A DNA stretch of 64,000 nucleotides. Origin: Anaerostipes butyraticus (GTDB lineage Bacteria > Bacillota > Clostridia > Lachnospirales > Lachnospiraceae). The notes under the pieces were generated by a model, which was not told the DNA's origin, ran no database searches, and saw nothing but the letters and a program-made list of their open reading frames with translations. This document shows, one piece after another, positions 687 to 18,745 of the stretch (its first letter is position 1; each line of letters starts with the position of its first letter). The stretch spans positions 1-64,000 of the forward strand of contig NZ_BLYI01000024.1 in NCBI RefSeq assembly GCF_016586355.1. Reading direction: 5' to 3'. The translations under genes and the position numbers were made by a program.

Positions 687-2180
687 ATGACAGGTTTAGC
701 AGAAAAATTGAAGCAGTATATGAAGAAAAATAATATCACAGTGTTTGACGTATCACAGGCTACGAACATCAGTGTGATGGAACTCTATAAAATCTGCCAG
801 GGTGAATGCTTTCCGGAGAACAGGGAAATCGTGGAGATCATAGCAAACGCTTTGGGAATGTCGCCGTTTGATAAGAAACAGCTGATGGAGAGTTATGACA
901 TCGGTTTCGATGGAGAAGCTAATTATTATGAAAAGAAATGTATCATCGATTTTTTGCAGCGGCTTGTTTTACGGGATCAGGATTCTATGTCACGGGGTGT
1001 GAAAGATGATTTAGAGGGGGAATCAGCCACAGAGTCAAAAGAGGTCATATATGGAAGGCAGAATATTGATAAATTCATACAGATTCTGCTGGAAAAACAA
1101 AAGAAAGAAGAAACAGAGATCTATCTGCTCTGCCAGCCGGAGTACGAATACCCATATCAGATTCTGTCTCTTTACAGCGATACGCTGAATTTGAAAATTT
1201 CTCATATTATATGTCTGCAGGGCGGACAGAGTTATGAGGCAAAAAAATACAATCTGGATTGTCTGCTCAAAATGCAGCCTTTGATCATGAGCAGTTCAGA
1301 TTATCAGGTTTACTATTATTATGATAAACAGGAATCCCATTTTCATAATCTGAATGTGTTCCCGTATATGGTAATGATCGGAGATCATATCCTTCAGATG
1401 TCAGAAAATTATCAGTGTGCCGTCCATGACTGGGGGAGCGAGGCCCGGGAGTTTTTTATGAATATTATCCGCGGCTATATGAAAGAAGTAACGCCGATGT
1501 TTGTGATGAAACCGGGGATTAATGATATCATTAATACATACAGCAAAGCAATTGACGAAAAAATCTGCGGAGTGGTGCCGGTTAAGAAGCATTTGATCTT
1601 TTCATCGATGCTGGGATCTGTGGCGACTCCTTTTGACGTATCCATGGATTATTTTAATGTGGAAGGAGAAATGGGCAAGCTGTCAAGAGCATTTCTTCGA
1701 AGAAATAAGGAACTGGAAAATGAAATGCTTCGGACAACTACGGAATACAAAGGATTTTTCAAAGAATCCTGGGTACGGGAATACATGGAAACCGGTTATC
1801 TGGCAGATCCATATTATAAATACTGCAATAAAATTCCTCTGGAATCCCGTCTGAAGGTTATCGAGACAGCAATCCAGCAGATTCAAGAAGGAAAGATCAT
1901 GCACTATATGCTGAAACCAGATGCTCTTGTGATGCCGGATGATCTGTACATCAGCTGTTTTGATAATGTTCAGGTGTCTCTGCTTTTTCGGAAGAATAAT
2001 CATGAGTGGTGTTTCTTTGTATTATATGAGAGAAGTGTAACCGATGCATTCTTTCATTTTATAGATGCCCTGGATCATTCTTCCATGGTATATGAGACGG
2101 AAGAAACACTGTGGAGACTGCAGGAAATAGTAAAAGAATATAAAAGCGCTGACAGTAAAAAAGAGGATGAAGAGAGATGA
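687..2180 (+). CDS. XRE-family regulator with large C-terminal domain (paralog 1)
   Basis: This is a 497-aa protein. Residues about 5-60 form an XRE helix-turn-helix (FDVSQATNISVMELYKICQG). The remainder is unrecognised but clearly shared with the next gene: both have a YYYYDxxxSHFxNLN segment followed by GDxxxQ near residues 210-240, and a YGRQN/YGKKN segment just after the HTH linker. The start is ATG 687 after GAAAGGGG. It is the first gene of the FHA locus and overlaps the second regulator by ATGA, so the two are translationally coupled. Role inferred: transcriptional control of this locus, with the long domain sensing an unknown signal. Confidence 0.8.
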   Translation: MTGLAEKLKQYMKKNNITVFDVSQATNISVMELYKICQGECFPENREIVEIIANALGMSPFDKKQLMESYDIGFDGEANYYEKKCIIDFLQRLVLRDQDSMSRGVKDDLEGESATESKEVIYGRQNIDKFIQILLEKQKKEETEIYLLCQPEYEYPYQILSLYSDTLNLKISHIICLQGGQSYEAKKYNLDCLLKMQPLIMSSSDYQVYYYYDKQESHFHNLNVFPYMVMIGDHILQMSENYQCAVHDWGSEAREFFMNIIRGYMKEVTPMFVMKPGINDIINTYSKAIDEKICGVVPVKKHLIFSSMLGSVATPFDVSMDYFNVEGEMGKLSRAFLRRNKELENEMLRTTTEYKGFFKESWVREYMETGYLADPYYKYCNKIPLESRLKVIETAIQQIQEGKIMHYMLKPDALVMPDDLYISCFDNVQVSLLFRKNNHEWCFFVLYERSVTDAFFHFIDALDHSSMVYETEETLWRLQEIVKEYKSADSKKEDEER

Positions 2181-3430
2181 GTATTTTTTCAGATAAATTA
2201 AAAGAATATATGAAACAGAAAAACGAGAAAGTATATAGTCTGTCTCAAATGTGCGATATTTCCAGAGCAAATATGTATAAGATCGTACAGGGAACCAGAC
2301 ATCCGGCAAACGTGGAGATGGTATACCGCATCGCTGATGCCCTGGGACTTTCGCCTTATGAAAAGAGAGGACTGATTGAATCTTATCAGATTACAATGAT
2401 CGGAAAAGATATTTATGAGGAGCGCAGCTATATTGTTCATCTGATCAGCAGTCTGAAAAAACATAGAAATCTTCCGGTGGAATGGGGACAGTCAAAGGAA
2501 AATCCGGAAACACAGGGGAAAAAGAAATTTTTGTATGGAAAAAAGAATGTCAATGGAGAAATACGAAAGATCATAAAGCGGGAAGCTCAGAAAGAATCCG
2601 GGAAAATATGTGTGATCGGACAGCCGGATTATGCGTTTATCCAGCAGATGCTGATTTCCTATTGCGAGAATAAGAATGTGGAGATCCAGCATATCATTTG
2701 CATGGAGAGCAGAGAAAATGGAGAGAGAAACACCTATAATCTGAGTAATTTTACCCACATTTCACCATTTCTTATATCGGAATGTAAGTACAAGGCCTAT
2801 TATTACTATGATAATGTCCAGTCTCATTTTTATAATTTGAATCTTCTTCCCTGTGTGATCGTGGCAGGAGACGAAGTGATTCAGGGAACGTCTGACTATG
2901 AGTATGCAATTTATGACTGCAGCAGGGAGAGAGTAAACGTATTTCACAAAATGTTCCAGGATTTTCTAAAAAGGACAAGTAAGATTTTTCGAATCAGTCA
3001 GAACCTGGAAGAAGCAGGCCGGTGGATCAGCATGCATAAAATTGACGCAGTGCTCAGCTGCGATTATGCCGGATATCTGTTTATGGAAAAATGGAAAGGA
3101 AAGACTGCAAAAAATTTAAAAATTTTCATTTCTGAGGAAGAGACAAAAGACGCGTCTTTTAATAAATGGAAGATTGAAGAAGAGAAAAGGGACTCATGGA
3201 GGGATTCCCTGCTGGAGAAGAAAGGAAAGAGCTGCAAGATTCATTCTGAATTATTTCCTGTTCCGGAAAATTTTCTTATGCTGACGGAAACCGGCGGAAA
3301 TATACTGCTTATTTTTGAAAAAGAAAATCAGAACTGGGGGGTTCTGGAGATTTATGAGACGAGTATAAAAAAATCCATGTATCAATTTTTAGAAAATCTG
3401 GATAAAAGTTTGCTTGCAGAACACTTGTGA
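2177..3430 (+). CDS. XRE-family regulator with large C-terminal domain (paralog 2)
   Basis: This is a 417-aa paralog of the preceding gene. It has an N-terminal HTH (YSLSQMCDISRANMYKIVQG, about 20-40), the conserved linker ending GLSPYEKRGLIESY, and the shared YYYYDNVQSHFYNLN block near residue 210. The C-terminal third differs and is shorter. The start codon overlaps the stop of paralog 1 (ATGA, 2177-2180). Tandem, coupled paralogs suggest heteromer formation or mutual control (inference). No known ligand-binding family was recognised in the C-terminal part. Confidence 0.8.
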   Translation: MSIFSDKLKEYMKQKNEKVYSLSQMCDISRANMYKIVQGTRHPANVEMVYRIADALGLSPYEKRGLIESYQITMIGKDIYEERSYIVHLISSLKKHRNLPVEWGQSKENPETQGKKKFLYGKKNVNGEIRKIIKREAQKESGKICVIGQPDYAFIQQMLISYCENKNVEIQHIICMESRENGERNTYNLSNFTHISPFLISECKYKAYYYYDNVQSHFYNLNLLPCVIVAGDEVIQGTSDYEYAIYDCSRERVNVFHKMFQDFLKRTSKIFRISQNLEEAGRWISMHKIDAVLSCDYAGYLFMEKWKGKTAKNLKIFISEEETKDASFNKWKIEEEKRDSWRDSLLEKKGKSCKIHSELFPVPENFLMLTETGGNILLIFEKENQNWGVLEIYETSIKKSMYQFLENLDKSLLAEHL

Positions 3431-3468
3431 TTTAGAATAGAGAAAAGGGATAAAAAAGGAGGAAATGG

Positions 3469-3879
3469 ATGGCGCTGGTTGAATGTGAACGAGGCCACGT
3501 GTATGATGATGAAAAATTTCCTGTATGCCCTTACTGTATGAATTCACGAAAACAAAAGGGCATTTACATATCAGTGGCAAAGAAAGAAAAAAAGCGAAGA
3601 TTCTATATCGCAGGATGGCTGGTAGCGACAGAAGGCAGAGAGAAAGGAAAGGATTTTCAGATCTATGCCGGAAAGAACAAGATTAACCGGGAAATATGTA
3701 TCATATATGATCCGAAAGGAAACCGGTTTTATCTGGCGCCGGAGGCAGGGGAGATTGTTTGCCTAAATGGGGAGCTGCAGATGGATGCAGCGGAGATCCG
3801 GACAGGGGATCAGATTTCCTGTGGGGAGAATGAATATGAGTTTGTAGCTTTTTGCAGAGGGAATCGAGTATGGAAATGA
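3469..3879 (+). CDS. Zinc-ribbon protein with degenerate FHA-like domain
   Basis: This is a 136-aa protein. The N-terminal motif CxxGHxYDxxKFxxCPxC (residues 6-23) is shared with the gene at 7650, so both probably bind zinc with the same fold. The segment from about 43 (AGWLVATEGREKGKDFQIYAGKN) parallels the FHA start of the 7650 product (VGWLVCIKGEMYGQSFPLHAGKN), but the usual GR, SxxH and NG phosphothreonine-binding residues are missing or changed. It may be a scaffold that no longer binds phosphopeptide. ATG 3469 follows AAAGGAGG; an earlier ATG at 3465 is out of frame. Its end overlaps the next gene. Confidence 0.7.
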   Translation: MALVECERGHVYDDEKFPVCPYCMNSRKQKGIYISVAKKEKKRRFYIAGWLVATEGREKGKDFQIYAGKNKINREICIIYDPKGNRFYLAPEAGEIVCLNGELQMDAAEIRTGDQISCGENEYEFVAFCRGNRVWK

Positions 3880-5597
3880 GATGGAGAAACAGGCTGGCGG
3901 TATGTTTCCTGATACTGGCAGTGGGAATTTTCATGGTGCCTGTTTATGGAGCGGATATAGTAGTAATTGAACAGGCAAAAGTGAATATGCCGAAAATCCG
4001 TTTATATGTGCATGATACGGAAAATAAAATGTTATCAAAAGATGATGTGGAAGCCTATCTGGGACAGGAACTTCTTGAGACTGAAAAAGTAAGCCGGTTT
4101 GATAAAGACCGGGAGGGGAGCCGGTACGTTTTTCTGATGGATATATCCTCATCGGTTCCTTCCGGCACTTTTGAGCAGATGAAAAAGGAACTAAAATCTT
4201 TTCAGAGGAAAATGGGAAAGGGAGACCGATGGACGCTGATGACATTTGGAGAGAAAGTGACAACTGTGTTTCAGGATCAGAAGGCATCGGATCAGGTTTC
4301 AGATAAGATTGACCGCCTGAAAGGGAAGGATGACAGAACCTTGTTATTTGAAGCGCTGAAACAGGCGGCGCAGGATATCGATGCAGATTCCGGGCAGAGA
4401 AATATTTTTGTTGTGCTGACAGATGGAGAAGATTTTTCCGGAGGAGAGGCAAGCAAAGCGGAAGCGCTGGATGTGCTGGAGAAAAAATCAGTTTCTTTGT
4501 ATGCACAGGGAATTGAAAACGGTGACGCTAAAAACAGGGCTAATCGAAAAGCGCTGGGAGAATTTGCCAGGGAGACAGGAGGGGAATACAGAGATTTTCC
4601 TTCGCTGGAGGATCTGAAAGATTACCTGGATGAATTCCAGATCGTGGAGCTTGCAGGAAGCAGCAATAAGATCACGTTTCAGAAAGAAACTCTGTCTGTG
4701 AACTTTAAACAGGAAAAGAAGCAGGTACAGAAAGAAGTGTATCTGACCCGGTATCAGAAAGCCGGAGAGAAAGCGAAAATTTCAAAAGCGGAAAAGACCG
4801 GAGACAAAGAGATCCGGATATATTATAATCAGAGTATGACGGGAGCGGATGAGCCGGATCATTTTCGGATTTTATATCAGGGAAAACATCCGGCAGAAGT
4901 TCTGAAAGCAAAATATGCGGAAAAAGATGGAGATTACTATTCCACACTGCAGATGAAGGACAGCATCTATCAGGGAGAGTATACGATAGACTGCAGTGAT
5001 GTTGTCAGTGATTCCATGGAAAAGACGGAACCGGAAGAATTAACAGTCAGACTGAAAGGGAAAAATTATGTTGTCCATCATTACGGACCGATATTTCTTC
5101 TGGCAGCGGTTCTGACTGGAGGCGGTGTTTTCGCAGTCTTCCGGACTCGAAAGAAGAAAAGAGAAGAACCGGAGACGGCAGAAGAAAAACCGCGGGAACC
5201 GGAGAATCTGGAAGCAGTACAGGAAGAAACAACAAAGCCGGGAGGAAACAAGGTTGCGGTCAGGGAACATCTGGAAGCAGGACATCATCCGGAAATTATG
5301 CTCAAAGTGTACGCGGATGACAGGATCGCGGCCAGAATATCGGCAGAAATTGACAGCAGTCTGATGGTTGGACGCAACCAGAATTCGGATCTCTATTTTG
5401 ATGATCCGACCATGTCACGACAGCAGTTTGTGCTGTTTGAGAAAGGGGAAGAGATATGGATCCGGAACCTGTCAAAAACCAATCCGACACAATGCAATGG
5501 CAGAATCATAGAAGGGGAGATACCTCTCAGAAATGGTGATGTCCTCTGTGCAGGAAGCACCATAATAAAATGTGAAATGAAGGAGAGAACAGTATGA
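3870..5597 (+). CDS. VWA domain protein with signal peptide, TM segment and cytoplasmic FHA domain
   Basis: This is a 575-aa protein from ATG 3870, chosen over an upstream in-frame TTG because AGAGGG precedes it at good distance. Residues 1-28 are a signal/anchor (LAVCFLILAVGIFMVPVYGA). A von Willebrand A domain covers about 86-265 with an intact MIDAS start, DISSS at 91-95, and VLTDGEDFSG later. A TM helix (FLLAAVLTGGGVFAVF, about 410-428) is followed by a basic stop-transfer stretch and an acidic linker. The C-terminal 100 residues are an FHA domain (MVGRNQNSDLYFDD, MSRQQF, CNGR). Topology: VWA outside, FHA inside, which would link an extracellular contact to the kinase encoded next. Confidence 0.85.
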   Translation: MEMRWRNRLAVCFLILAVGIFMVPVYGADIVVIEQAKVNMPKIRLYVHDTENKMLSKDDVEAYLGQELLETEKVSRFDKDREGSRYVFLMDISSSVPSGTFEQMKKELKSFQRKMGKGDRWTLMTFGEKVTTVFQDQKASDQVSDKIDRLKGKDDRTLLFEALKQAAQDIDADSGQRNIFVVLTDGEDFSGGEASKAEALDVLEKKSVSLYAQGIENGDAKNRANRKALGEFARETGGEYRDFPSLEDLKDYLDEFQIVELAGSSNKITFQKETLSVNFKQEKKQVQKEVYLTRYQKAGEKAKISKAEKTGDKEIRIYYNQSMTGADEPDHFRILYQGKHPAEVLKAKYAEKDGDYYSTLQMKDSIYQGEYTIDCSDVVSDSMEKTEPEELTVRLKGKNYVVHHYGPIFLLAAVLTGGGVFAVFRTRKKKREEPETAEEKPREPENLEAVQEETTKPGGNKVAVREHLEAGHHPEIMLKVYADDRIAARISAEIDSSLMVGRNQNSDLYFDDPTMSRQQFVLFEKGEEIWIRNLSKTNPTQCNGRIIEGEIPLRNGDVLCAGSTIIKCEMKERTV

Positions 5598-6820
5598 GTG
5601 CCAGTGAAATTAATGCACTTCCAAACGGAATAAAACTCCAGAATCGTTATGTGCTTGAGAGAAAGCTGGGCGCCGGAGGATTCGGGATTACATATCAGGC
5701 ATATGATATTCTGAATAAAATCGAATGCGCGATCAAAGAATATGCGCCAAGGGGACTGGTCGTCAGAGATACGGACGGCATTGCGATCCGAACAACAGAC
5801 AGCCGGTACGAAAAAGACTTTCGCATCGGCAAAATGGGATTTCTGGAAGAGGCGAAAATGCTTCAGAGGTTAAACTACATACCGGAAGTAGTGTGTATCA
5901 CAGATTACTTTTTTGGAAACGGAACAGTTTACTTTGTTATGGAATACCTGGACGGTCAGGATCTTTCCCACAGAGTCCGGCAGATGGGAGGCAGGATTCC
6001 GGTGGATGAGGCCAACCGGATTATTTATAAGATCGGGGATGCGCTTTCCATTGTTCACAAAGAGGCTCATATTTTCCATCGGGATATCAGCCCCGGCAAT
6101 ATCATTTTATTAAAAGACGGGAAAATCAAGCTGATTGATTTTGGAAATGCCAAAAGTATGGGAGATGAACATGTCAATGACGGGCCGATCGTATATAAAC
6201 CGGGATTTTCGCCGCCGGAACAGTACAGCAGGACAGGGAGACAGGGCGCGTTTACGGATGTTTACGCTCTTGCCAGTACGTATTATTACATTGTGTCCGG
6301 AAGGAGAATTCCTGACGCGATGGACCGGATGGCAGGAGAAACTTATGTAAAATTAAAAAATCTGAATCTTGGCGTTAATACGAAGATTTCCAATGTGATC
6401 GATATGGCGCTGGAACTGGATGAAGGGAAACGTCTGAGGACAGTCAGGGAACTGATTTCTGCCTTTTACGAAAAAGAAATCACGGTTGCCAAGAACAAAT
6501 ATCCTTATCTGGAAGTGATGCAGGGAGAAAACAAAGGCGAGATCTGGCGAATTCCTCCGAATTATAAAGTAAAGCTTGGCAGGTCTTCCAGGGAATCCAA
6601 CATTGTGGCAGATCATGCTCCGGCAATCAGCAAGCTGCACTGTGAGATTTACTATGACGGAGTGCAGAATCAGTTTCGTATCGTAGATTACTCTACAAAT
6701 GGAACCTTTTTAAATGGAATCAGAATTGGAAGAAATCAGATGCAGATTGCCTACCCGGGACAGATGTTTCAGATGGGAAAGAATATCTGCACCATTAAAG
6801 TGGGGGTAATATATGAGTAA
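5594..6820 (+). CDS. Serine/threonine protein kinase with C-terminal FHA domain
   Basis: This is a 408-aa Hanks-type kinase. It shows a glycine loop (LGAGGFGITY, 25-34), the ATP lysine in CAIKEY (K48), a catalytic loop HRDISPGNI near 161, and DFGNAKS near 182 followed by PPEQYS and FTDVYAL. There is no TM helix or PASTA repeat, unlike the usual Firmicute PrkC. Residues about 308-405 form an FHA domain (KLGRSSRESN, ISKLHCEI, TNGTFLNG) with all the expected phosphothreonine-binding positions. It overlaps the previous gene by ATGA and the phosphatase by 8 nt. Probable role: phosphorylating threonines that recruit the FHA proteins of this locus. Confidence 0.92.
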   Translation: MSASEINALPNGIKLQNRYVLERKLGAGGFGITYQAYDILNKIECAIKEYAPRGLVVRDTDGIAIRTTDSRYEKDFRIGKMGFLEEAKMLQRLNYIPEVVCITDYFFGNGTVYFVMEYLDGQDLSHRVRQMGGRIPVDEANRIIYKIGDALSIVHKEAHIFHRDISPGNIILLKDGKIKLIDFGNAKSMGDEHVNDGPIVYKPGFSPPEQYSRTGRQGAFTDVYALASTYYYIVSGRRIPDAMDRMAGETYVKLKNLNLGVNTKISNVIDMALELDEGKRLRTVRELISAFYEKEITVAKNKYPYLEVMQGENKGEIWRIPPNYKVKLGRSSRESNIVADHAPAISKLHCEIYYDGVQNQFRIVDYSTNGTFLNGIRIGRNQMQIAYPGQMFQMGKNICTIKVGVIYE

Positions 6821-7628
6821 GTATATGAATCAGGGCGACATTCCTACGGTACAGATTTATAATTCAGATGTAAAAGAATATAAGATCCGGACCTCACTGG
6901 ACAGCATTCTGGGGACCAGGAAAAATCAGCAGGATTCTGCGTTTGTTCAGTCGGAGAAAAACCTCACGGTGGGAATTGTATGTGACGGCATGGGTGGATT
7001 AAACGCCGGCGAGGTTGCCAGCCAGATGGCGGTGACACAGTTTATCGAAGATTTTTACCGGGCAGAGGTAAAGGATATTCCGCTGTTTATGGAGCAGGAA
7101 ATCGTGAAGATCGACCAGAATGTATTTGACGCCCGGGATGAACATCATGAAAAACTGGGCGCGGGTACGACATTGGTAGCAGTGATCATTTACAAAGATC
7201 AGATGTACTGCGCGTCCGTAGGCGACAGCAGGATTTATCTGATCCGCAATTCGAAGATCCATGCGCTGAACCGGCTGCATAATTACCGGGAACAGCTGGA
7301 CCGGATGCTGCGTCAGGATATGATCACAGAAGCGGAATACAAAAAGGAAGAACCTAAGGCGGAAGCGCTGACCAGCTTTGTAGGGATGGGAAATCTTCTG
7401 ATCCTGGATGTAACGAAGCAGCCGATGCAGCTGAAAGATGGGGATGTGATTCTTTTGTGCAGCGATGGGCTGTATAAGACACTGAGCGAAGAACAGATGC
7501 GGGCTGTTGTGGAAAATCACAATATTCCGTGGAATTTAAAAGCCAGGGCCCTGACCAGAAAGGCAGAGGAAGAAACCATATCAAAGCAGGATAACACAAC
7601 CGTTGTGTTGATCAAATATAATGAATGA
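6813..7628 (+). CDS. PP2C-family serine/threonine phosphatase
   Basis: This is a 271-aa soluble phosphatase. PPM-type metal-binding motifs are visible in order: RKNQQDS, VCDGMGGLNAG, GTTLVAVI, SVGDSRIYLI, LLCSDGLYKTL and KQDNTTVVLI. The asparates expected to hold the two metal ions are present. It probably reverses the neighbouring kinase. The start overlaps the kinase end by 8 nt, which implies balanced co-translation. No extra sensory domain is seen, so specificity must come from partners. Confidence 0.92.
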   Translation: MSKYMNQGDIPTVQIYNSDVKEYKIRTSLDSILGTRKNQQDSAFVQSEKNLTVGIVCDGMGGLNAGEVASQMAVTQFIEDFYRAEVKDIPLFMEQEIVKIDQNVFDARDEHHEKLGAGTTLVAVIIYKDQMYCASVGDSRIYLIRNSKIHALNRLHNYREQLDRMLRQDMITEAEYKKEEPKAEALTSFVGMGNLLILDVTKQPMQLKDGDVILLCSDGLYKTLSEEQMRAVVENHNIPWNLKARALTRKAEEETISKQDNTTVVLIKYNE

Positions 7629-7649
7629 TGAGATTTGGAGGATGAGAAG

Positions 7650-8393
7650 ATGAAATTAAAGAGATGTGAAAACGGACATTTTTACGATCAGGACAAATTT
7701 GCTGCCTGCCCTCACTGCGCAGCCATTGAGGAAGAGATGGATAACGAGACACAGACTTTAGACGAGCAGACCATGTCTATCTATGAAAATCCGCCGGAAG
7801 ACATGGGAAGCGCCCGGACAGATGACGAGGAGTCTGTGACTATCCCTGCAGACTCTGCAGATGTTCACAGAGTGGAAATTCCGGAACCTGAACCGTATCG
7901 GACGGAAACGCAGATGACAGAGCCGGAGACAAGAGGAACTGTTCAGGAAAGAGCGTTCAGAAACATTCAGCCGGAACCGGATTATGATGATGATCCGGTT
8001 ACCGTGGGACTTTTTGGAGATCCTCATGAACCTCGTCCTGTTGTAGGCTGGCTGGTGTGCATCAAAGGCGAAATGTACGGACAGTCCTTCCCTCTCCATG
8101 CCGGAAAGAATTTCGTTGGCCGCGGCGCGAACATGGATGTAGTCATCCGGGGAGACCGGAGTGTGTCCAGAGACAAGCATGCCATCATTATTTATGAACC
8201 ACGCAGGAGAGAATTTATTGCTCAGGCAGGGGAGTCCAGAGAATTATTTTATCTTAACGATGAAGTTGTACTCAGCATGGACAAATTAAAGAATCATGAT
8301 GTGCTGACCATTGGAAGAACAGACCTTATGTTTGTTCCGCTCTGCGGAGAAGATTTCAGCTGGGAAGACATTGGGAAGAAGGGAGAAGAATGA
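7650..8393 (+). CDS. Zinc-ribbon and FHA domain protein
   Basis: This is a 247-aa protein. ATG 7650 is preferred over the in-frame TTG at 7635 because GGAGG (7637-7641) lies 8 nt before it. The N-terminus carries the CxxGHxYDxxKFxxCPxC motif shared with the 3469 gene. It is followed by an acidic, Thr/Ser-rich linker (about 30-125) with several TxT and TxxE sites that could be kinase targets. The FHA domain occupies about 130-235 (FVGRGANMDV, VSRDKHAIII, LNDEV). A phospho-acceptor linker plus FHA in one protein suggests switchable self-association or docking (inference). Confidence 0.85.
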   Translation: MKLKRCENGHFYDQDKFAACPHCAAIEEEMDNETQTLDEQTMSIYENPPEDMGSARTDDEESVTIPADSADVHRVEIPEPEPYRTETQMTEPETRGTVQERAFRNIQPEPDYDDDPVTVGLFGDPHEPRPVVGWLVCIKGEMYGQSFPLHAGKNFVGRGANMDVVIRGDRSVSRDKHAIIIYEPRRREFIAQAGESRELFYLNDEVVLSMDKLKNHDVLTIGRTDLMFVPLCGEDFSWEDIGKKGEE

Positions 8394-9370
8394 AGCACTT
8401 TGATCTGAACAAAAAACAACAGAAAGTGATGCTGATCATTGTTTTTGCCCTGGGATGTCTGACACTGCTGCTTCCATATATGGATCTGACAGGAAGCGAA
8501 TTTCAGAAGGTTATGACTGGCGGAAGCGGCAGCATAGGAAAAGCATTGTCTGCGGTCATGCCCCAGCTTGGAAATATAGAGATTCCGGAAACCATCATCC
8601 GAATGGCCGGATGGGAGCAGATAAAAATGGTAATCCAGACTTCCTTTGCGATGAAATGGCTGATTCTGATTCTGCTGCTGGTTCCGGTTATTTTGAATAT
8701 CGCTGGAATCGTTTTGACGGCAGCAGAAAAAATCGGATATGAGAAACTGATTTTCATTCCGGCGGTCAATATTATTTTATACCTGATCTTGTTTTATGAA
8801 ATGCCGGAAGTCATCACCAGCATTGTTCAGAATACAGTAGCCGATGAACTGAGCAGTTCCGGCATCATAGGAGGCAGCATCCTTTCCTCAGCAGCAGACT
8901 CTGAAATATTCAGCACATTTCTCCGGAATATTGTCGGACAGCTCAGAGTGCCTCTGGCAGGATACGGACTCTGGGCCGCAGTCGGATGTCAGGCGGTCAT
9001 TGTTATCATCATCGTGCTTGGAATCGTCCGCAGGAAAACAATGATGGAAGGAAGTGTCGAGGCGGGAGAGCTTCTTGGAATCAAAGGAAGCGTCATGGAT
9101 ATGGAATTTCCAATGGAAGGAGAAGAAGTCATCGTCATTGGAAGAAATCCGGCGTCCTGCCATATCATATTGGAGGAAGAAGAAATCAGCAAGGTACACT
9201 GTAAAGTATCATTTGATGAGAAAATATGTCAGTATCGACTTATCGACTGTTCCAGCAGCGGATGTTTTCTTGCAGGCGGAACCAGACTGCCGCTGGGAGA
9301 AGAAGTTATTATCAAACCGGGCACCGAGGTATATCTTGGAGGCAGGGAAGTTGCCTTCCGGTTAAAGTAG
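8390..9370 (+). CDS. Multi-pass membrane protein with C-terminal FHA domain
   Basis: This is a 326-aa protein. Hydrophobic helices lie near residues 14-30, 85-112, 120-140 and 190-210, with a probable outside loop between the third and fourth. The cytoplasmic C-terminus (about 230-326) is an FHA domain: VIGRNPASCHIILEE, ISKVHCKVSF, SSGCFLAGG. The position normally occupied by NG is replaced by AG. The N-terminal membrane part was not recognised. It overlaps the preceding gene by ATGA and is 15 nt from the FHA-ABC transporter, suggesting a membrane partner of that transporter. Confidence 0.8.
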   Translation: MKHFDLNKKQQKVMLIIVFALGCLTLLLPYMDLTGSEFQKVMTGGSGSIGKALSAVMPQLGNIEIPETIIRMAGWEQIKMVIQTSFAMKWLILILLLVPVILNIAGIVLTAAEKIGYEKLIFIPAVNIILYLILFYEMPEVITSIVQNTVADELSSSGIIGGSILSSAADSEIFSTFLRNIVGQLRVPLAGYGLWAAVGCQAVIVIIIVLGIVRRKTMMEGSVEAGELLGIKGSVMDMEFPMEGEEVIVIGRNPASCHIILEEEEISKVHCKVSFDEKICQYRLIDCSSSGCFLAGGTRLPLGEEVIIKPGTEVYLGGREVAFRLK

Positions 9371-11677: not shown

Positions 11678-11697
11678 TGGAGCAGGGAGGAAAATAT

Positions 11698-12534
11698 ATG
11701 GAAAATTTGAGAGAAAACAGAGGGGTGATTAAATTTTGGATCTTTACCATTCTGACTGTCGGAATTTATGGGATCTATTTCTGGTGGCATGTATGCAAAG
11801 ATCTGAATACTGCATGTGGATATACAGAGGAAACAGACAGCGACAGAACACCGAATTATATTGTGGTCTGTCTGCTGGGCCTTATTACCATTGGCATTTA
11901 TATCATTTACTTGAAATACAAACAGGGAAACCGGATGCGCAGTGCCGGGTACAAGTATAATCTTATGATATCAGAAGGCGGATGGTCCTACATCCTGTGG
12001 CCGTTTTTCCCGATTGCGGGAGTCTTGATCGCGGATCATCTCTTTTTTGCCAATTTAAATAAAATCTGCGGGGCATATAACCGGGCAGCGGCAAAACAGG
12101 GAGCCGGATATCAGGAACATGCAGGACAGGATACCGCGCAGGCTCCGGAGGAGGATACAATGGCGCTGACAGAAATGCAGGAAGGTTCGTCTACGCTTAT
12201 GCCTCCTGTGATCGACACAGGAATGGAAAGTACGATTTTCTGTAAAAAGGGCGAATATGCCGGAACAGAGATCACAGTCAAAGACGGTGAGGAAATCATT
12301 CTGGGCCGGGACGGAAGCCAGAGCCATTTGGTGCTGCTGAATAAAAAAATCAGCCGGAAACACTGCGGCATTATCTTTCAGGGGATTTCTGATAACTACG
12401 TAGTGACGGATTATTCATCCACCGGCGTTTATTTCGCAGATGGCAGCCGGTTTCCAAAAGGAGAGCCTGTGATTTGTGAGAGAGGAACGCTGCTGAGTTT
12501 GAGCAGCGGGGAAAATCAGTTTATACTGCAGTGA
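11698..12534 (+). CDS. DUF4234-like membrane protein with C-terminal FHA domain
   Basis: This is a 278-aa protein. ATG 11698 is chosen because GGGAGG is 7 nt upstream; an earlier ATG at 11677 overlaps the previous stop. The N-terminus (IKFWIFTILTVGIYGIYFWW, then a second helix LLGLITIGIYIIYLKYKQGNR) resembles the DUF4234 membrane family, with a third helix near 98-118. A linker rich in Thr/Glu follows. The FHA domain covers about 180-278 (IILGRDGSQSH, ISRKHCGIIF), with the NG position replaced by STGVYFADG. Likely a membrane-located phosphothreonine reader within the same module. Confidence 0.8.
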   Translation: MENLRENRGVIKFWIFTILTVGIYGIYFWWHVCKDLNTACGYTEETDSDRTPNYIVVCLLGLITIGIYIIYLKYKQGNRMRSAGYKYNLMISEGGWSYILWPFFPIAGVLIADHLFFANLNKICGAYNRAAAKQGAGYQEHAGQDTAQAPEEDTMALTEMQEGSSTLMPPVIDTGMESTIFCKKGEYAGTEITVKDGEEIILGRDGSQSHLVLLNKKISRKHCGIIFQGISDNYVVTDYSSTGVYFADGSRFPKGEPVICERGTLLSLSSGENQFILQ

Positions 12535-12568: not shown

Positions 12569-14179
12569 ATGATTCAATGTGAGGTATGCGGGAAGCAGCT
12601 GCCGGACGATGCCGCGTTCTGCCCCAGGTGCGGAACGATCGTAAAAAGCCGGCTGGAAGCGGAGAAGCAGGCAAAGAAAAAGAACAAAACCAAATATCTG
12701 GTACTGGGTGTCATAGCAACGGTTTTTGCATTTGCGGCCGGATTGATTGTGTGGAATCTGTTTCTTTCATCGCGGGTCTATGACCAGCGGATTGAAATTG
12801 CCGAAGAATACAGCAGGGACAAGGATTATGACAAAGCGCTGGTAGCCTATGCGGCCGCCTGTGATCAGGATCCGGAAAATGAAGAAGCCTATGTGGGCAT
12901 GTGCAATGTTTATATGATGCAGGATGAGGACGCCAAGGCTGCCGCAATCCTTCAGATTGGGGAAGCGAAGGTAAACAGTGCGGATCAGATTCAGGATAAA
13001 AAGCAGGAACTTTCTGAGATGAACGGCTCAGAGATTTTTGACGAGCAGGCAGCAGTGCCGGAATATACGGAGACACAGGGCAGAGATATTGCACGGAACA
13101 AAGACCAGGCAAAAAAACAGATCACAGATCTGACGGATGAGATCCTTTATGGTATTTCCGGACAGGGTAATATGAAATCGGTCCTTTTCGGCGACAATAT
13201 TATTTACGCTGAAAATACACAGATCTGTCAGATGGATCAGAATGGAAATTATAAGGAAAAAATCGTGGAACTTCCACTGGCGTCAGCGACTTATGGAAAG
13301 TCAGATGAGGTTACAAAGATTATAACAGACGGAGTCACCGTTTTCGTATTAACAGGAGGCAGTCAGTCAGAAATCTACGCGGTTGATGTAGACAGCAAAA
13401 GTTATGACCAGCTGCTGGATGTTCCGGAAACTACGGAAAATATCTGGTTTTATCACAATAAAGTATATTATCAGTATGAAAATTCTGCGGGGACAGTGAT
13501 CATAGGAACGATGAATAAGGATGGAACCGGGAAGAATGAACGGCTTGAGGCAGACCATGCCCAGTCCGTTACAGTAAACCGGGATTACATATATTATGTG
13601 ATGGATAACAGCGGAGGAGCTCCAAGTCTGTGGAGAGAAGATCTGGAAACACAGCAGACGAAAAATATGTTTCAGTTTCCTTCCGCCTCCTCCGGAGAGG
13701 TTGCGAAAGCAGAAATCATAGGAGAGCAGTGCTTTTATGTTCTGGAAGCAGGCGGAGATCCGGAGATTTACTGTTATAATATGGATACAAAGGAAAACAA
13801 AAAGATTGCGGACGGTCAGCTTCAAAATCTTTATGACGGAGATGTTTATTATTCCAGGGGGGATGAGGACAGCGGATTTACTTTCTACAAAACAGCTCAG
13901 GATGGTGAGGACAAGACAGAACTCGGAACGGCGCATGGAAAGACCATAGGAATCGATCTTCTGAAAGACAGAATGCTGATGCGGGAGTATTTTGAAGAAT
14001 ATGATTCCAGTCAGGAAAACATGGCGTACGGAGATCTGTTGTTCTTATTGAATCTTGAAGAGAAAACAGACAATCAGAAAGTAATTAACAGCAGTGAGAG
14101 CAGCTTTAAAAACGAACTGAGACGTAAACTTCAGGGAATCACTGATGACAGCGGTTTTCAGCAAACATCATGGACGTAA
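12569..14179 (+). CDS. Zinc-ribbon, single-TM protein with TPR and DUF5050-like repeats (paralog 1)
   Basis: This is a 536-aa protein. It starts with a zinc ribbon (CEVCGKQLPDDAAFCPRCG, 4-22), a basic stretch and one TM helix (about 45-66), so the remainder is probably outside. Residues about 75-135 form TPR-like helices (KDYDKALVAYAAACDQDPEN). The rest is a chain of beta segments of the type YAVDVDSKSY, WFYHNKVYYQYEN and YIYYVMDNSG, as in DUF5050 propeller-like proteins. It is paralogous to the next gene (same TM-TPR-repeat order). No catalytic motif is seen; it is likely a structural or sensor subunit. Confidence 0.75.
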   Translation: MIQCEVCGKQLPDDAAFCPRCGTIVKSRLEAEKQAKKKNKTKYLVLGVIATVFAFAAGLIVWNLFLSSRVYDQRIEIAEEYSRDKDYDKALVAYAAACDQDPENEEAYVGMCNVYMMQDEDAKAAAILQIGEAKVNSADQIQDKKQELSEMNGSEIFDEQAAVPEYTETQGRDIARNKDQAKKQITDLTDEILYGISGQGNMKSVLFGDNIIYAENTQICQMDQNGNYKEKIVELPLASATYGKSDEVTKIITDGVTVFVLTGGSQSEIYAVDVDSKSYDQLLDVPETTENIWFYHNKVYYQYENSAGTVIIGTMNKDGTGKNERLEADHAQSVTVNRDYIYYVMDNSGGAPSLWREDLETQQTKNMFQFPSASSGEVAKAEIIGEQCFYVLEAGGDPEIYCYNMDTKENKKIADGQLQNLYDGDVYYSRGDEDSGFTFYKTAQDGEDKTELGTAHGKTIGIDLLKDRMLMREYFEEYDSSQENMAYGDLLFLLNLEEKTDNQKVINSSESSFKNELRRKLQGITDDSGFQQTSWT

Positions 14180-14191: not shown

Positions 14192-16180
14192 ATGAGGAAC
14201 AAAAAGTATACAATCATTGGAATTGCAGTGGCACTCTGGATCTGTATTGTTGGTTTTATCGGTTTTCGGGTTTACAGAAGCAGCCAGCAGTACAGCGACT
14301 GGATTCAGCAGGCAGCCGCTTATGAGCAGGAAGGAAAATATGAAGAGGCTCTGATCTCTTATGCCATGGCTTCCGGCATTAAGCCAAAAAAAGCAGAGCC
14401 TTATATTAAGATGGCGGAAATTTATGAAGATCAGGGGGATTATGATGATGCCGCTTCGATTCTGAGGATAGGAAGTGAAAATATAGGATCTTCCTTCCTA
14501 AGAAAAAGTGAGTCAAATCAGCTGGCATCTGCGGAATCGGATTTTTATGGAAGAAATGAAGATAACAATCCGGATCCTACGAAAACGCCGGACATATATC
14601 AAAAGACTCAGGAGACAGCTGAGAATAACAAGGGAGATACCAAAAATGATTTGCTTGATGAAATCATGACAGAAGAGCAGGGAGGCACCGGAAATACATT
14701 TTCTGCCATGAGCAACGGCGAGATTTATTATACGGGACAGGACGGCATTTACACCGTGCAGCCGGATGGAAGTGATAATAAATCTGTCAAAGAAATCGAT
14801 CCTTCTGCGGCAAGGATTTCTGATTTCCAGATCAGCAATCGGATGGCTTATTATCTGGAAGCAAAAGATACCAGTCAGGACGGAGTCTATGATTATTCTC
14901 TTTGTACGATGAATCTGGATACTGGCGAGGAAGATGTCCTTTATGAAATGGATGCGCTGTCTGATGCCAGCATGAAAATGGATGAAGATACGATTTATGT
15001 AGCTTCCAGAGAAAGCTCCAGCACGGATATGACGGCCGGGCTGACTGATCCTGAAGTTAAAATTGAGACCTTATCATGGAATGAAGAAGACCAGCAGTAT
15101 GATGATCCGGCAGCTGCGGCCAGTTACGAAGGAACCAGCACGGGCATCTATGTCCAGAATAAGAAAATCTATTATTCCCAGGCCAGTGAATCCGGCGATG
15201 AAATGTTGGAAGATCTCTGTCAGTATGATATGGAGAGCAAAGATACAAAGAGCCTGAGCAAAGGCATTCCATCCGTACATTCCATTATGGGAAACGACAA
15301 ATATATTTATTATTATGCAGGCGCGGAAGAGTCCAAAACATATGCCTATAACCTGGATACAGAAGAAACTGAGACCGTGGCAGACGAAGCGCTGAACAAC
15401 GTCTGCGGAACCAGTCTCTATTTGTCTGCCAATGACGACAGTCAGACGGAAGTCAAGTTATACTGCCAGAACGAGGACGACAGTAAGAAAGATACCTTGA
15501 CTACCATAGAAAATGATGGTCAGTATTCCGTCGATGTAGTTGGAGATAAAATGCTGATTTGCATTGACCATGCGTCTGAAGAATCACAAAGCGTATATCT
15601 GGCTGATCTGGACGGAAACAATATGAAAGAAATCAACCAGATTGAGAAAAAGACGGACAGCGCCGGCGCTGCGACGGCTGCAGAGAGCACAACGGAAACA
15701 ACAGAAGCCGCAGACACCGAAAGCAGCAGTTCGGGAAGCGGCATGAAGGCTGCTTATCAGAAGGTTCTGGATGATACATATTCAAAATATAAGAATCAGG
15801 GCGGTAAATATCTGGAATACCATGTATACGATGCAGATCAGGATGGAACCGAAGAACTGATTGTACGAAATGGAACCTGTGAGGCCGACTATATGTGGAA
15901 GATTTATACATATGATGGCGGAAGAGCGGTTCTGCTGGATACATTTGCCGGAGGGCATACAAGTCTTTATGTGTGCAGCAGCGGCGGCTTTTACTGCATG
16001 CAGGTACATATGGGAAATGAAGCAGTGTATAAATATACACTTTCCAATGGAAATCTGTCCAGCCAGAAAACCTATGAGGCCAATTTTGGAGAAGATGAGA
16101 GCAAATACAAAGAACCGGGAGACGGTAAAATGCCTCAGGCATATATAACGGATAGTTCTCTGCTGGATTCTCTGAAATAG
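14192..16180 (+). CDS. Single-TM protein with TPR, beta-repeat region and calcium-like loop (paralog 2)
   Basis: This is a 662-aa protein lacking the zinc ribbon of its paralog. A TM helix spans about 6-24, TPR-like helices about 35-100 (GKYEEALISYAMASGIKPKK), then beta-strand repeats to about 470 (IYYTGQDGIYTVQPDGSD, KYIYYYAGAEESKTYAYN). A Thr/Ser/Glu-rich linker (about 485-515) leads to a C-terminal domain with YDADQDGTEELIV, an EF-hand-like calcium loop common in Firmicute surface proteins. It lies 12 nt from the previous gene. Probable outward-facing, membrane-tethered component; function unknown. Confidence 0.75.
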   Translation: MRNKKYTIIGIAVALWICIVGFIGFRVYRSSQQYSDWIQQAAAYEQEGKYEEALISYAMASGIKPKKAEPYIKMAEIYEDQGDYDDAASILRIGSENIGSSFLRKSESNQLASAESDFYGRNEDNNPDPTKTPDIYQKTQETAENNKGDTKNDLLDEIMTEEQGGTGNTFSAMSNGEIYYTGQDGIYTVQPDGSDNKSVKEIDPSAARISDFQISNRMAYYLEAKDTSQDGVYDYSLCTMNLDTGEEDVLYEMDALSDASMKMDEDTIYVASRESSSTDMTAGLTDPEVKIETLSWNEEDQQYDDPAAAASYEGTSTGIYVQNKKIYYSQASESGDEMLEDLCQYDMESKDTKSLSKGIPSVHSIMGNDKYIYYYAGAEESKTYAYNLDTEETETVADEALNNVCGTSLYLSANDDSQTEVKLYCQNEDDSKKDTLTTIENDGQYSVDVVGDKMLICIDHASEESQSVYLADLDGNNMKEINQIEKKTDSAGAATAAESTTETTEAADTESSSSGSGMKAAYQKVLDDTYSKYKNQGGKYLEYHVYDADQDGTEELIVRNGTCEADYMWKIYTYDGGRAVLLDTFAGGHTSLYVCSSGGFYCMQVHMGNEAVYKYTLSNGNLSSQKTYEANFGEDESKYKEPGDGKMPQAYITDSSLLDSLK

Positions 16181-16221: not shown

Positions 16222-16551
16222 ATGATCAGAAAAAGTATGAAAAAAGCTGTATTAGGAATTGTATGCGCGGTATTTCTTATGATGAGCGCCGGATGTTCTG
16301 CGGTAAGTTCGATTACAGGAGGCGGATACACGTCAGATGAGCCATGCGCATGGTGCGGAGAGACTCCGACCAAGGAATTCAAGACGTCAGGAGGCGATCC
16401 ATGCTATATCTGTGAAGAACATACACATGAATGCGGCGTCTGCGGAAAGAATTTTGATAAGGAACTGAATCATTATACCAACCTGATGGGCATTGAAACG
16501 TTTGTATGTGATGACTGTTATCAGGATGTCCAGGATATGAATCAAAATTAA
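16222..16551 (+). CDS. Small Cys-rich lipoprotein
   Basis: This is a 109-aa protein with AGGAGG 9 nt before ATG 16222. A signal peptide ends in the lipobox MSAGC (Cys at about 25), so it should be lipid-anchored outside the membrane. The mature part has four CxxC pairs (CAWC, CYIC, CGVC, CDDC) and an HTH pair of histidines, arranged as a double zinc-ribbon or treble-clef. Zinc ribbons are usual in cytosolic proteins and unusual in an exported lipoprotein. It is the last gene before the break in the locus. Confidence 0.75.
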   Translation: MIRKSMKKAVLGIVCAVFLMMSAGCSAVSSITGGGYTSDEPCAWCGETPTKEFKTSGGDPCYICEEHTHECGVCGKNFDKELNHYTNLMGIETFVCDDCYQDVQDMNQN

Positions 16552-16556: not shown

Positions 16557-16597
16557 TTGTCGATTTTTTTGTCCAATATTGAAATGATGATAGTAAA
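16557..16597 (+). promoter_or_regulatory. Promoter-like motif of the XRE/FHA locus (copy 2)
   Basis: This is a second copy of the 604-638 motif (29 of 35 bases identical), with TTGTC boxes at 16557 and 16569 and AATATTGAAAT at 16575-16585. The likely -10 is weaker here (TAGTAA near 16591). It sits in the 388-base gap between the lipoprotein gene and the zinc-ribbon gene at 16940. Apart from this motif and the hairpin at 16781, I see no gene in that gap. Confidence 0.45.
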
Positions 16598-16829: not shown

Positions 16830-16939
16830 CTTGGCATAGGAATAAATGATCGGAGCAATATGCAAAAATACTGATTTTCTTGGCTGAGCCTGAATGAAAT
16901 ATTCTATAGCGTATTCTCACAGGAAGGGGAGAGGAAAAT

Positions 16940-17827
16940 ATGATATGTCCAGAGTGCAGAGCAAAGAATCCGGATGATGCGAGATTTTGTGGAAATTGTG
17001 GTTATAATTTCCAGAATCAGATGGTAGAGACAGAGCAGGAAAAGAAGAAAAAAGAGAGGAAAAAAATAATATTATATATTTTAGTGGGGATTGTATTTGC
17101 CATTACCGCTGCTGCTGCTCTGCTGATTGTTTTAGATGATACGGGAAGCGGGGCAAATGATGTCAGTGATATTGCATTGCCAAAGGAAAAAAGTTCTTCT
17201 GCCGGCAGTACCGAGACTTCTGCCGACAGCACAGAAACTTCAGCTGCGTCATCTGAGGAAAAAGCAGACAGTGATCTTCCGGAGATTGTGTCAAATGCAA
17301 AAGTAGATTATAATAAAATTATATCATTGCATGATTATAAGACGTTTTATGCAGACGGATATTCGTTTGGATTTCCGCTGCTGTTATATGAACGGGTTGA
17401 GGAATTTGGAGATAACGGATATCGTTTCAGCAGCAGCTCGGATCCATATTCCTGGCTGGAATTTCAGCAGGAAAAGCGAACGGATCAGAGTTCCATAGAG
17501 GAGACCGCAAAAGAAAGAAGCAGAGAACTGAAAAGTCAGATGACCGGAATAGAGGAAATACTGGATAAACCGGAAAAAGGAGTCTGTATCTTCGCCGGAA
17601 GCCGCTATAATGATGAAAATCAGAAATTGTATCATCTGCTCCGGGTGGAGGATGACTGCGTTTATAATATGACGGTGGGATATCCAGACACAGATGATAA
17701 AGAACTGGATGGCAAAAGAAATTATTATATTGACTGTCTTTATCGCATGTGCAGTTTCAGTGGAGGAACTTATAAGCCAAGGACCTATGACCAGTTTTTA
17801 AGTAATGATATGGGAACTAAAAAATAA
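16940..17827 (+). CDS. Zinc-ribbon, single-TM protein with extracytoplasmic domain
   Basis: This is a 295-aa protein with zinc ribbon CPECRAKNPDDARFCGNCG (3-21), a basic segment, a TM helix (about 41-64), a Ser/Thr/Glu-rich spacer (about 75-115) and a C-terminal domain (about 125-295) that was not recognised. It follows AGGGGAGAGG. The architecture repeats that of the 12569 product, with a different outer domain, so it probably belongs to the same membrane assembly. Confidence 0.75.
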   Translation: MICPECRAKNPDDARFCGNCGYNFQNQMVETEQEKKKKERKKIILYILVGIVFAITAAAALLIVLDDTGSGANDVSDIALPKEKSSSAGSTETSADSTETSAASSEEKADSDLPEIVSNAKVDYNKIISLHDYKTFYADGYSFGFPLLLYERVEEFGDNGYRFSSSSDPYSWLEFQQEKRTDQSSIEETAKERSRELKSQMTGIEEILDKPEKGVCIFAGSRYNDENQKLYHLLRVEDDCVYNMTVGYPDTDDKELDGKRNYYIDCLYRMCSFSGGTYKPRTYDQFLSNDMGTKK

Positions 17828-17851
17828 AAAAGGGAAAGAGAGGATAATATT

Positions 17852-18745
17852 ATGCCAAAATTTTGTACCAAATGCGGGAGCGCACTGATCAACGGCAAAT
17901 GTCCGAATTGTGACAGCGGCCAGCCAATGGGGCAGCAGGATCATAAGCCGAACGATTCGTTAAATCAGCAGGAGCATGAACCGCACACAGCCAGCACAGA
18001 ACACTATAAAGAACAAGGAAAGGCCTTCTTCCAGAATCTTTTGATGATCATTAAAAATCCAGTGGATGGGCTGCTGGTGGCTGCGGAAGATAAAAACAGC
18101 AAAATAGGACTGATTTTTATGGGGATTGAAGCAGTTCTTGCAGGGTTATTTGTTTTCATTTTCTTTAGCAAAATTCAGGGAATGATAGAAACTCTGAGCA
18201 GTTTGAGCAGTTCAGATGTATCAGGAAATCTTATAAGTTTTTCCTTCCTGATTGTTGGATGTCTGTTAAATATGGGAGAAAATATGGAGACATTTGGAAA
18301 TATGTTTACCAATACCAGCGAACTGACAAAACCATTTATGGGAGGATATCTCATAAGAGAAGCGATTGTAGTCTTTCTTACATCTCTGATCGTGTCCGGG
18401 CTGGTGTATGTTTTGATGAGATACATGGCTCATGCGGAAATGAACTGGTTCCAGTCCTGTCAGCTGGTCGGACTGAGGAGTCTGGGAGCCGCTATGGGAT
18501 GGCTGATTGCGATTATCGCTGTTCTTCTCGGACTTTATAACATAGCAGTGATTGCGATTATGCTGGGAATGATTCTAAGTATGATTTATCTTGGAGTTGC
18601 CATGGCAGTATATCCGGGTACAAAGAGAAATCTGATACCATATATTCTTCTGATTCTGGCGGTTGTTATGATTCTTATAGTATATGTGGTAATGAAAGGA
18701 AATTTAGAAACATTAGTTGGAAATAATATTTTTAGAGGCTTATAA
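17852..18745 (+). CDS. Zinc-ribbon multi-pass membrane protein, Yip1-like
   Basis: This is a 297-aa protein. A short zinc ribbon (CTKCGSALINGKCPNC, 5-20) and a polar linker precede five or so membrane helices (about 87-108, 125-140, 165-190, 210-250, 265-285). The layout matches bacterial Yip1-domain proteins with N-terminal zinc ribbons. It is 24 nt after the 16940 gene and so co-transcribed. It is the last gene of the accessory locus. Confidence 0.7.
   Translation: MPKFCTKCGSALINGKCPNCDSGQPMGQQDHKPNDSLNQQEHEPHTASTEHYKEQGKAFFQNLLMIIKNPVDGLLVAAEDKNSKIGLIFMGIEAVLAGLFVFIFFSKIQGMIETLSSLSSSDVSGNLISFSFLIVGCLLNMGENMETFGNMFTNTSELTKPFMGGYLIREAIVVFLTSLIVSGLVYVLMRYMAHAEMNWFQSCQLVGLRSLGAAMGWLIAIIAVLLGLYNIAVIAIMLGMILSMIYLGVAMAVYPGTKRNLIPYILLILAVVMILIVYVVMKGNLETLVGNNIFRGL

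Follow-up and report, generated by a model that had tools for sequence, protein, structure and literature searches.

What is a locus for that sets a Ser/Thr kinase and a PP2C phosphatase beside a VWA surface protein, an ABC exporter and eight FHA domains? Such a locus opens contig NZ_BLYI01000024.1 of Anaerostipes butyraticus (assembly GCF_016586355.1; genome 3.17 Mb), where the open reading frame (ORF) list gives 15 plus-strand genes between positions 687 and 18745 of the window, the whole stretch of 64,000 nucleotides analysed here. On balance, we lean towards reading it as a cell-envelope cassette for phosphothreonine signalling that is complete in itself, in which a small zinc-ribbon-FHA protein would serve as the phospho-adaptor. 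All coordinates below are on the plus strand of the window unless stated otherwise.

The earlier note on this DNA had described one continuous set of genes encoding the kinase, the phosphatase and about eight FHA domains in seven genes, together with a VWA protein, a dual-FHA ABC-2 exporter, paired transmembrane (TM)-TPR proteins, a lipoprotein and zinc-ribbon proteins. The inventory is borne out. Pfam confirms the kinase, PP2C, VWA, DUF4234, ABC_tran with ABC2_membrane, TPR, DUF5050 and zinc-ribbon domains, and seven FHA domains in six genes pass its cut-off; the eighth, in the gene at 3469..3879, is a family-profile match only and has lost its phospho-binding loop in the alignment. The continuity of the set holds as far as 16551, with successive intergenic gaps of -4, 38, -28, -4, -8, 6, -4, 15, -1, 34, 12 and 41 bp, and fails beyond it: because a 388-bp gap separates the gene at 16222-16551 from the final two (16940-18745), these probably form a second block. 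Seven of the eight Pfam FHA matches in the whole genome (E ≤ 0.01) lie inside the locus, and the eighth has surroundings that we take to resemble a Tad-pilus region. At locus L009 (G000:C23:58014), an FHA protein is followed by a rhomboid-like gene; both the rhomboid and the Tad-pilus labels are our own presumption.

The core of the locus consists of seven consecutive genes. The first (3852..5597) encodes a VWA-TM-FHA protein with a signal sequence, a VWA domain (Pfam) carrying the DxSxS motif, a TM segment and a Pfam FHA domain. It is followed by the Ser/Thr kinase (5594..6820; Pkinase and C-terminal FHA by Pfam), which has the motifs GxGxFG, HRDxxxxN and DFG and no hydrophobic, hence no TM, segment, and by the PP2C phosphatase (6813..7628; Pfam), Stp1-like below the NCBIfam cut-off and with the metal-site motifs DGMGG, GDSR and LCSDG. 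After the zinc-ribbon-FHA putative phospho-adaptor (7635..8393) come a multi-TM protein with five hydrophobic segments and a C-terminal Pfam FHA domain (8390..9370), the exporter (9386..11677) and a DUF4234 TM protein with a C-terminal FHA domain (11677..12534; both by Pfam), in which the motif scan marks Thr161 (12157-12159). The exporter is an ABCG-like fused half transporter (ABC_tran and ABC2_membrane by Pfam; TIGR00955-like below the cut-off) with Walker A, LSGGQ and Walker B motifs. Two FHA domains, ABC and ABC2 stand on one chain, as the earlier note had it in likening the protein to Rv1747, whose own FHA-FHA-ABC order we in part presume.

Homology searches, in each of which the own genome is counted, found the exporter in 13 of 299 genomes of the family Lachnospiraceae (E ≤ 1e-100), the kinase-FHA protein in 28 of 397 (1e-55), the VWA protein in 11 of 397 (1e-25) and the zinc-ribbon-FHA protein in 31 of 391 genomes of the class (1e-12). 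Since exporter, kinase-FHA and VWA proteins were not found at these limits in the sole same-genus genome drawn, the locus is patchy. When named genomes were scanned for two peptide patterns, 249 relatives of the zinc-ribbon-FHA protein emerged, of which the best 80 were kept; L189, L200 and L212 were then dropped because they lie on the same contigs as L162, L165 and L167. The 77 remaining neighbourhoods include two possibly near-identical pairs (L139/L140 and L141/L142) and some that share one genome, and exclude ORFs under 80 or 100 aa; here and in the other locus counts, domains were labelled by profiles that started from window sequences and were extended with those of the loci, with Pfam applied to selected proteins only.

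Across these 77 neighbourhoods, PP2C is the most constant member besides the bait (73, with the bait itself in 76 by the stricter pattern), followed by TM-FHA proteins (59), VWA-FHA proteins (55), kinase-FHA proteins (53), membrane receptor kinases (50) and the FHA-FHA-ABC exporter (24). VWA, kinase-FHA and PP2C genes stand consecutively and in this order in 40 of the 77, and 619 of 625 domain-bearing ORFs are co-oriented. When only the 44 neighbourhoods longer than 18 kb are counted, 38 hold a VWA protein, 33 a kinase-FHA protein and 19 the exporter. Of the 24 exporter-bearing neighbourhoods, all contain a kinase, 23 contain PP2C and 21 VWA, and in 13 of them VWA, kinase-FHA, PP2C, at least one FHA gene and the exporter are uninterrupted by other domain genes. 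In the closest of the best 80 relatives, that of Candidatus Anaerostipes avistercoris (L136), the order from the first XRE gene to the second TPR gene is kept. Given that gene order is conserved in relatives, chance assembly is unlikely, and the co-oriented kinase-phosphatase-FHA unit proposed earlier stands. The exporter is a frequent output of this unit rather than its centre; it recurs, as an exporter-led reading would have it, but an exporter-centred arrangement as a general rule is rejected by its presence in 24 of the 77 neighbourhoods.

The second line of evidence lies in the zinc-ribbon-FHA protein. The disordered linkers of 128 distinct homologs (median 79 residues) were compared with shuffled sequences and contain 351 T[VIM] pairs against 127 ± 10 expected, whereas S[VIM] pairs, at 124 against 136 ± 9, are not enriched. 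The excess is steeper for [DE]..T[VIM] (163 against 19 ± 4) and for [KR]T[VIM] (122 against 9 ± 3). We further defined a strict motif, counted per threonine, with an acid at -3 or -4, V, I or M at +1 and L, I, Y, F or M at +3. It occurs at 200 sites in 142 adaptors (6.37 per 1000 aa), 116 of which carry it, compared to a background of 0.65 per 1000 aa in 813 unassigned ORFs, a set that includes spurious ORFs; the serine and reversed forms reach 0.60 and 0.41 per 1000 aa in the adaptors. Thirty-seven other soluble FHA proteins show an intermediate 3.16 per 1000 aa (18 of 37 carriers). The idea that all cluster proteins carry the motif was rejected, as the exporter, VWA, kinase, TM-FHA and PP2C classes range from 0.33 to 1.18 per 1000 aa.

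In 65 of 122 adaptors, 15 residues separate the final T[VIMLAF] site from the FHA core that follows it. In the window adaptor this site is Thr123 (codon 8001..8003, within DDDPVTVGLF), a candidate phosphosite that is at least 90% conserved among 30 aligned sequences including the window's own; Thr46 (codon 7770..7772, within LDEQTMSIY) is the second candidate from the motif scan. In the structure model, the zinc ribbon and the FHA domain (pLDDT about 95-98) are confident and the linker including Thr123 is of low confidence. Foldseek places 6i2p_E, a chain of the PknB-GarA complex, first by E-value with many FHA folds scoring close, and a profile comparison with solved structures ranks a chlamydial FHA protein (3gqs) first, then GarA (E 3.5e-5) and OdhI. 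The protein thus looks like a phospho-adaptor of the GarA/OdhI type. Motif-bearing adaptors occur in 82 of 91 kinase-bearing loci and in 5 of 11 loci without a kinase (Fisher p 0.001, with eight same-contig repeats dropped and six of the kinase-less clusters kin to each other); in these six, the adaptors are short and lack the motif.

Which proteins might read such a phosphothreonine? The R/S/N triad of the phospho-binding site is kept almost throughout the exporters (37, 37 and 38 of 38 homologs in FHA1; 38, 38 and 36 in FHA2), including both FHA domains of the window exporter, and largely in the VWA proteins (69, 71 and 64 of 74) and the kinase-FHA proteins (59, 55 and 53 of 59). The adaptor's own FHA domain mostly keeps R (135 of 142) and S (121), but its third position is Glu in 82 and Asn in only 12. 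Because the adaptors mostly carry Glu for Asn while the reader domains mostly keep the triad, we read the sequences as a division of labour in which the adaptor would carry the phosphothreonine and the exporter and VWA protein would be the clearest readers. All 74 distinct VWA-FHA proteins have a hydrophobic segment between VWA and FHA, and 55 have another before VWA, which suggests an extracellular VWA domain and a cytosolic FHA domain.

Under the cassette reading, the kinase would be activated, in relatives by membrane receptor kinases, and the soluble kinase-FHA protein, joined in relatives by membrane receptor kinases, would phosphorylate linker threonines of the adaptor. These phosphothreonines would dock on cytosolic FHA domains, chiefly those of the exporter and of the VWA-TM-FHA protein, with the two TM-FHA proteins, which lack the Asn, as maybe weaker partners. 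Docking would gather and gate the membrane FHA proteins and so alter their assembly or activity, and PP2C would reset the switch by reversing adaptor phosphorylation. The main output here would probably be export of an envelope or lipid-like compound through the ABCG-like exporter; this cargo is a guess by analogy to ABCG-like exporters and Rv1747. Relatives would use other outputs, such as trypsin, subtilisin, PrsW or a type VII secretion system (T7SS).

Several points weigh against this reading. The sequences show gene content, intact motifs, conserved order and the adaptor motif with its controls, from which phosphorylation, binding partners, gating, cargo and signal are inferred. The neighbourhood counts are not independent, since the sequences are related and all 77 neighbourhoods were baited with the adaptor. 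The exporter is unseen in 53 of them, although 33 neighbourhoods span less than 18 kb. Among 12 loci baited with the exporter instead, some on short contigs, only two hold a VWA protein, three PP2C and three a motif-bearing soluble FHA protein. A receptor kinase is missing from the window. TM-FHA proteins are mixed in their triad (130, 139 and 101 of 151), and both in the window (8390..9370 and 11677..12534) lack the third-position Asn. Nine of the 91 kinase-bearing loci are without a motif-bearing adaptor, and five of the 11 loci with no kinase in the fetched DNA do carry one. Finally, the adaptor is not a plain GarA, its own FHA domain being mostly without Asn.

The exporter-baited loci also bear on whether the genes are scattered among genomes, as the earlier note had considered. 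Seen from the adaptor they are not, given the recurring VWA, kinase-FHA and PP2C order; seen from the exporter they partly are, since a kinase stands in 10 of the 12 and PP2C and VWA are seldom there. Exporter and VWA genes, whose joint occurrence the note had proposed to search for, go together in the adaptor-baited set (21 of 24) and rarely in the exporter-baited one (2 of 12). As 4 of the 12 contain relatives of the TPR-propeller proteins, the window looks like a combination of an adaptor-VWA-kinase-PP2C group and an exporter-kinase group, the latter sometimes with TPR-propeller proteins.

The kinase beside most exporters invites a different view, in which the locus is a unit of the Rv1747/PknF type: the exporter would be its purpose, the kinase would act on it directly and the other FHA proteins would be local scaffolds. 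The FHA-FHA-ABC-ABC2 chain, the kinase frequency near exporters (10 of 12) and the near-constant VWA, PP2C and kinase genes of the 24 adaptor-baited exporter neighbourhoods all fit, and Rv1747 and pknF form one operon whose loss implicates a cell-wall component, according to the available text of PMC3908365. We nevertheless consider it unlikely: among exporters the strict motif hardly exceeds background (1.17 against 0.65 per 1000 aa), its K/R-T form is absent from all 38 exporter proteins, and in most neighbourhoods no exporter is seen. An equally unlikely proposal gives the leading part to the VWA and TPR-propeller ectodomains, which would remodel the envelope or mediate adhesion while the exporter merely supplies material. 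VWA proteins do outnumber exporters in the neighbourhoods (55 against 24 of 77), and relatives contain PASTA with PG_binding and CHAP genes (L037), a CHAP gene (L141), an M15 peptidase (L119) and a PASTA receptor kinase (L137), but Pfam finds no cell-wall enzyme in the window locus.

The locus could also be the phospho-regulatory half of a system like T7SSc, T7SSe or T7SSj whose secretion core has been lost or was never present here. In the available text of Garrett, Higginson and Palmer (2024, PMC11217815), kinase and PPM genes occur together with vWA genes in T7SSc and with FHA genes in T7SSe and T7SSj, DUF6382-FHA proteins are components of T7SSe/f/j, and the authors raise phospho-regulation. 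In five of our genomes (L172/L235, L177/L236, L194/L237, L238 and L239), a kinase/FHA/PP2C cluster has EssC-like and WXG100-type genes as neighbours. The clusters of L172, L177 and L194, which include the exporter, continue into a gene for an EssC-like ATPase that bears FHA, with Pfam WXG100 genes after it on the same contig (and YukD on that of L172); those of L238 and L239 adjoin an EssC over the cut-off and genes for small W-x-G proteins. EssC is also commoner in kinase-positive Lachnospiraceae (13 of 28 against 80 of 369; Fisher p 0.005).

Against this stand the searches of the own genome. Its best EssC match reaches 112.3 bits against a cut-off of 778.4, covering profile positions 469-661 in an 802-aa frame, with none at 1e-100, and its single WXG100 match (23.4 bits, cut-off 27.3) lies inside a 1490-aa frame. 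The earlier note's statement that no T7SS core is present is thus upheld for the genome with respect to EssC and WXG100, YukD and the core genes of the type VI secretion system (Tss) not having been searched for; to the same extent, a T7SS with its core elsewhere in this genome is rejected. No significant EssC excess appears in VWA-positive genomes (5 of 11, p 0.14) or in exporter-positive ones (4 of 13 against 67 of 286, p 0.52; 299 searched genomes, with membership taken from the handle numbering G000-G298). WXG100 exceeds the cut-off in 14 of 50 named adaptor-bearing genomes, and an EssC-like gene is in the fetched DNA of 3 of the 77 neighbourhoods. Because 10 of the 40 genomes that have a relative of the exporter, kinase or adaptor possess an EssC over the cut-off compared to 86 of 397 in the family, with the kinase subset alone in excess, we conclude that the cassette can partner a T7SS yet usually stands without one nearby, and we regard its being the remnant of such a system as quite improbable.

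Returning to the cassette reading, relatives indicate what might feed into it and what might follow from it. Receptor-kinase ectodomains comprise four PASTA domains (L137, which also has a solute-binding-like domain below the cut-off), RCC1 repeats (L154 and L159) and F5/8-type domains (L119 and L150). FHA domains are fused to trypsin-like peptidases (L119 and L168) and to a PrsW protease (L112). Adjoining the cluster of L199 (13237-17130) is a 1297-aa protein with subtilisin, Ig-like, VWA and FHA domains, and L209 has a VWA-FHA ORF of similar size. A wider proposal is quite possible, although we stop short of calling it probable: a class-wide, hitherto unnamed chassis in which receptor and soluble Hanks kinases would write on a multi-threonine zinc-ribbon-FHA adaptor. 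The readers would be membrane machines tagged with FHA domains and exchangeable for one another, namely the ABC exporter, the T7SS ATPase, surface proteases and the VWA anchor. If true, bacteria would have in it an equivalent of receptor-kinase/adaptor pathways, with outputs that can be swapped. The adaptor's threonine motif, the variable outputs and the receptor-kinase ectodomains go beyond the earlier note.

A kinase-less subgroup is conserved in its own right (L120, L123, L126, L130, L131 and L133; for example L131:5221-17921), with no kinase within the fetched DNA. Its members carry PP2C-type genes (own profile), a short zinc-ribbon-FHA gene, a TM-FHA gene and a gene for a protein of ~725 aa, and in five of six a gene that looks DnaJ-like by eye. 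Proteins of ~141 aa are paired in four of six, and four of six have extra proteins of 430, 232, 875 and 259 aa. The L131 proteins that were compared with Pfam and PHROGs gave no match except a weak TPR and one unknown PHROG (for the 623-aa PP2C-type protein). An RHS-like ORF, judged by eye, lies upstream in L131.

The remaining genes of the window locus flank this core. Two paralogous XRE-type regulators open it (687..2180 and 2177..3430), both with HTH_26 by Pfam; the C-terminal domain of the first weakly matches PLD/TrmB-like folds (model of mean pLDDT 77.7; Foldseek top matches polyphosphate kinase, PLD3 and TrmBL2 at low TM scores). XRE homologs stand beside the related loci in L103, L136, L160, L187, L188, L212 and L214. 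The gene at 3469..3879, upstream of the VWA gene, combines a zinc ribbon with the degenerate FHA domain. Downstream of the core lie a zinc-ribbon-TM-TPR-DUF5050 protein (12569..14179; Pfam), to which profiles relate proteins encoded close to the ABC gene of L031, L032, L033 and L035, and its TM-TPR paralog (14192..16180; assigned by alignment, TPR models below the cut-off), followed by a putative lipoprotein (16222..16551; lipobox MSAGC, by eye), at whose position L136 has a 114-aa ORF. The second block encodes a zinc-ribbon-TM protein (16940..17827; Zn_Ribbon_1 by Pfam), with a profile relative upstream of the first XRE gene in L136, and a protein with a zinc ribbon below the Pfam cut-off and about six TM segments by hydrophobicity (17852..18745).

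A 25-bp element, TTTTGTCYAATATTGAAATKATKAT, precedes both blocks. One copy (614..638), overlapping the direct repeat TTGTCTAAT, lies 48 bp upstream of the first XRE gene; the other (16567..16591) is 15 bp downstream of the gene at 16222-16551 and 348 bp upstream of that at 16940. With up to three mismatches, these are its only two copies in the 3.17-Mb genome, and a reversed control gave none; as the pattern was derived from both sites, only its rarity is tested by this count. A similar site stands upstream of the first XRE homolog in L136 (position 2976), and the element is possibly an XRE operator. A promoter and terminator scan of the locus yielded little. At the contig end (2-481, minus strand) lies a fragment of an IS91-type transposase (Zn_Tnp_IS91, Y2_Tnp), which is consistent with a mobile or accessory locus.

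How does this arrangement compare with known systems? The earlier note held that the gene set matches no system that can be named, and as worded this is not supported: kinase, PPM, vWA (T7SSc) and FHA (T7SSe, T7SSj) genes are clustered in the T7SS variants (PMC11217815, as far as its available text goes), and the five genomes above have an EssC-like neighbour. These variants contain the TsxC ATPase and the WXG100 protein TsxA, neither of which is over the cut-off in this genome. The kinase, PPM and vWA domain types of T7SSc are all present in the window, and the components were compared by description only: the vWA protein TscE is predicted to be soluble, in contrast to the signal-VWA-TM-FHA protein here, and our kinase, unlike TscD, has no TM segment. 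The available text of PMC11217815 describes no zinc-ribbon-FHA adaptor and does not contain the term 'ABC transporter'. Rv1747-PknF of Mycobacterium tuberculosis, as presented in the available parts of PMC3908365 and PMC5549992, shares two FHA domains on an ABC exporter, an adjacent kinase and a phosphothreonine partner that binds FHA I. It is a two-gene operon, whereas in the window kinase and exporter stand in the same gene row with three genes between them; its partner is a universal stress protein, and VWA, PP2C and adaptor genes are not described in those parts.

GarA and OdhI resemble the adaptor as small FHA proteins with a phosphorylatable threonine ahead of the FHA domain and as Ser/Thr kinase substrates (PMC8546545, available text). 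Their motif is ETTS and ours D-[DE]-x-[KR]-T-[VI]; the adaptor here has an added zinc ribbon and mostly Glu for the FHA Asn, and GarA is a metabolic regulator of Actinobacteria, unlike the envelope adaptor proposed here. The ArnA-ArnB pair of Sulfolobus likewise joins a zinc-finger FHA protein to a vWA partner, kinases and a phosphatase (PMC6509490, available text), and zinc-ribbon-FHA and VWA genes are near each other in our locus. That pair is archaeal and controls the archaellum, and its vWA protein, built of vWA, beta-sandwich and helix-bundle domains with no FHA domain described in that text, itself bears the phosphosites; the VWA domain here would, in contrast, be extracellular. Triads of adjacent zinc-ribbon kinase, PP2C and vWA genes are also similar, but they are actinobacterial, tied to GAP1-N2 GTPase systems and have a standalone vWA, with neither FHA network nor exporter in the available text of PMC7159879.

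Among the titles and abstract openings that our searches of open-licence literature listed, none described this locus or gene combination. Kinase-phosphatase-FHA control of membrane machines and secretion is already known; what appears to be new, as we found no report of it, is a free-standing cassette with a dedicated adaptor and variable outputs across Clostridia. If the reading is right, Thr46 and Thr123 would be named candidate phosphosites through which the gating of envelope machines by bacterial Ser/Thr kinases could be understood, and Rv1747-like exporters, kinase-bearing T7SS variants and GarA-like adaptors would be joined in a single scheme.

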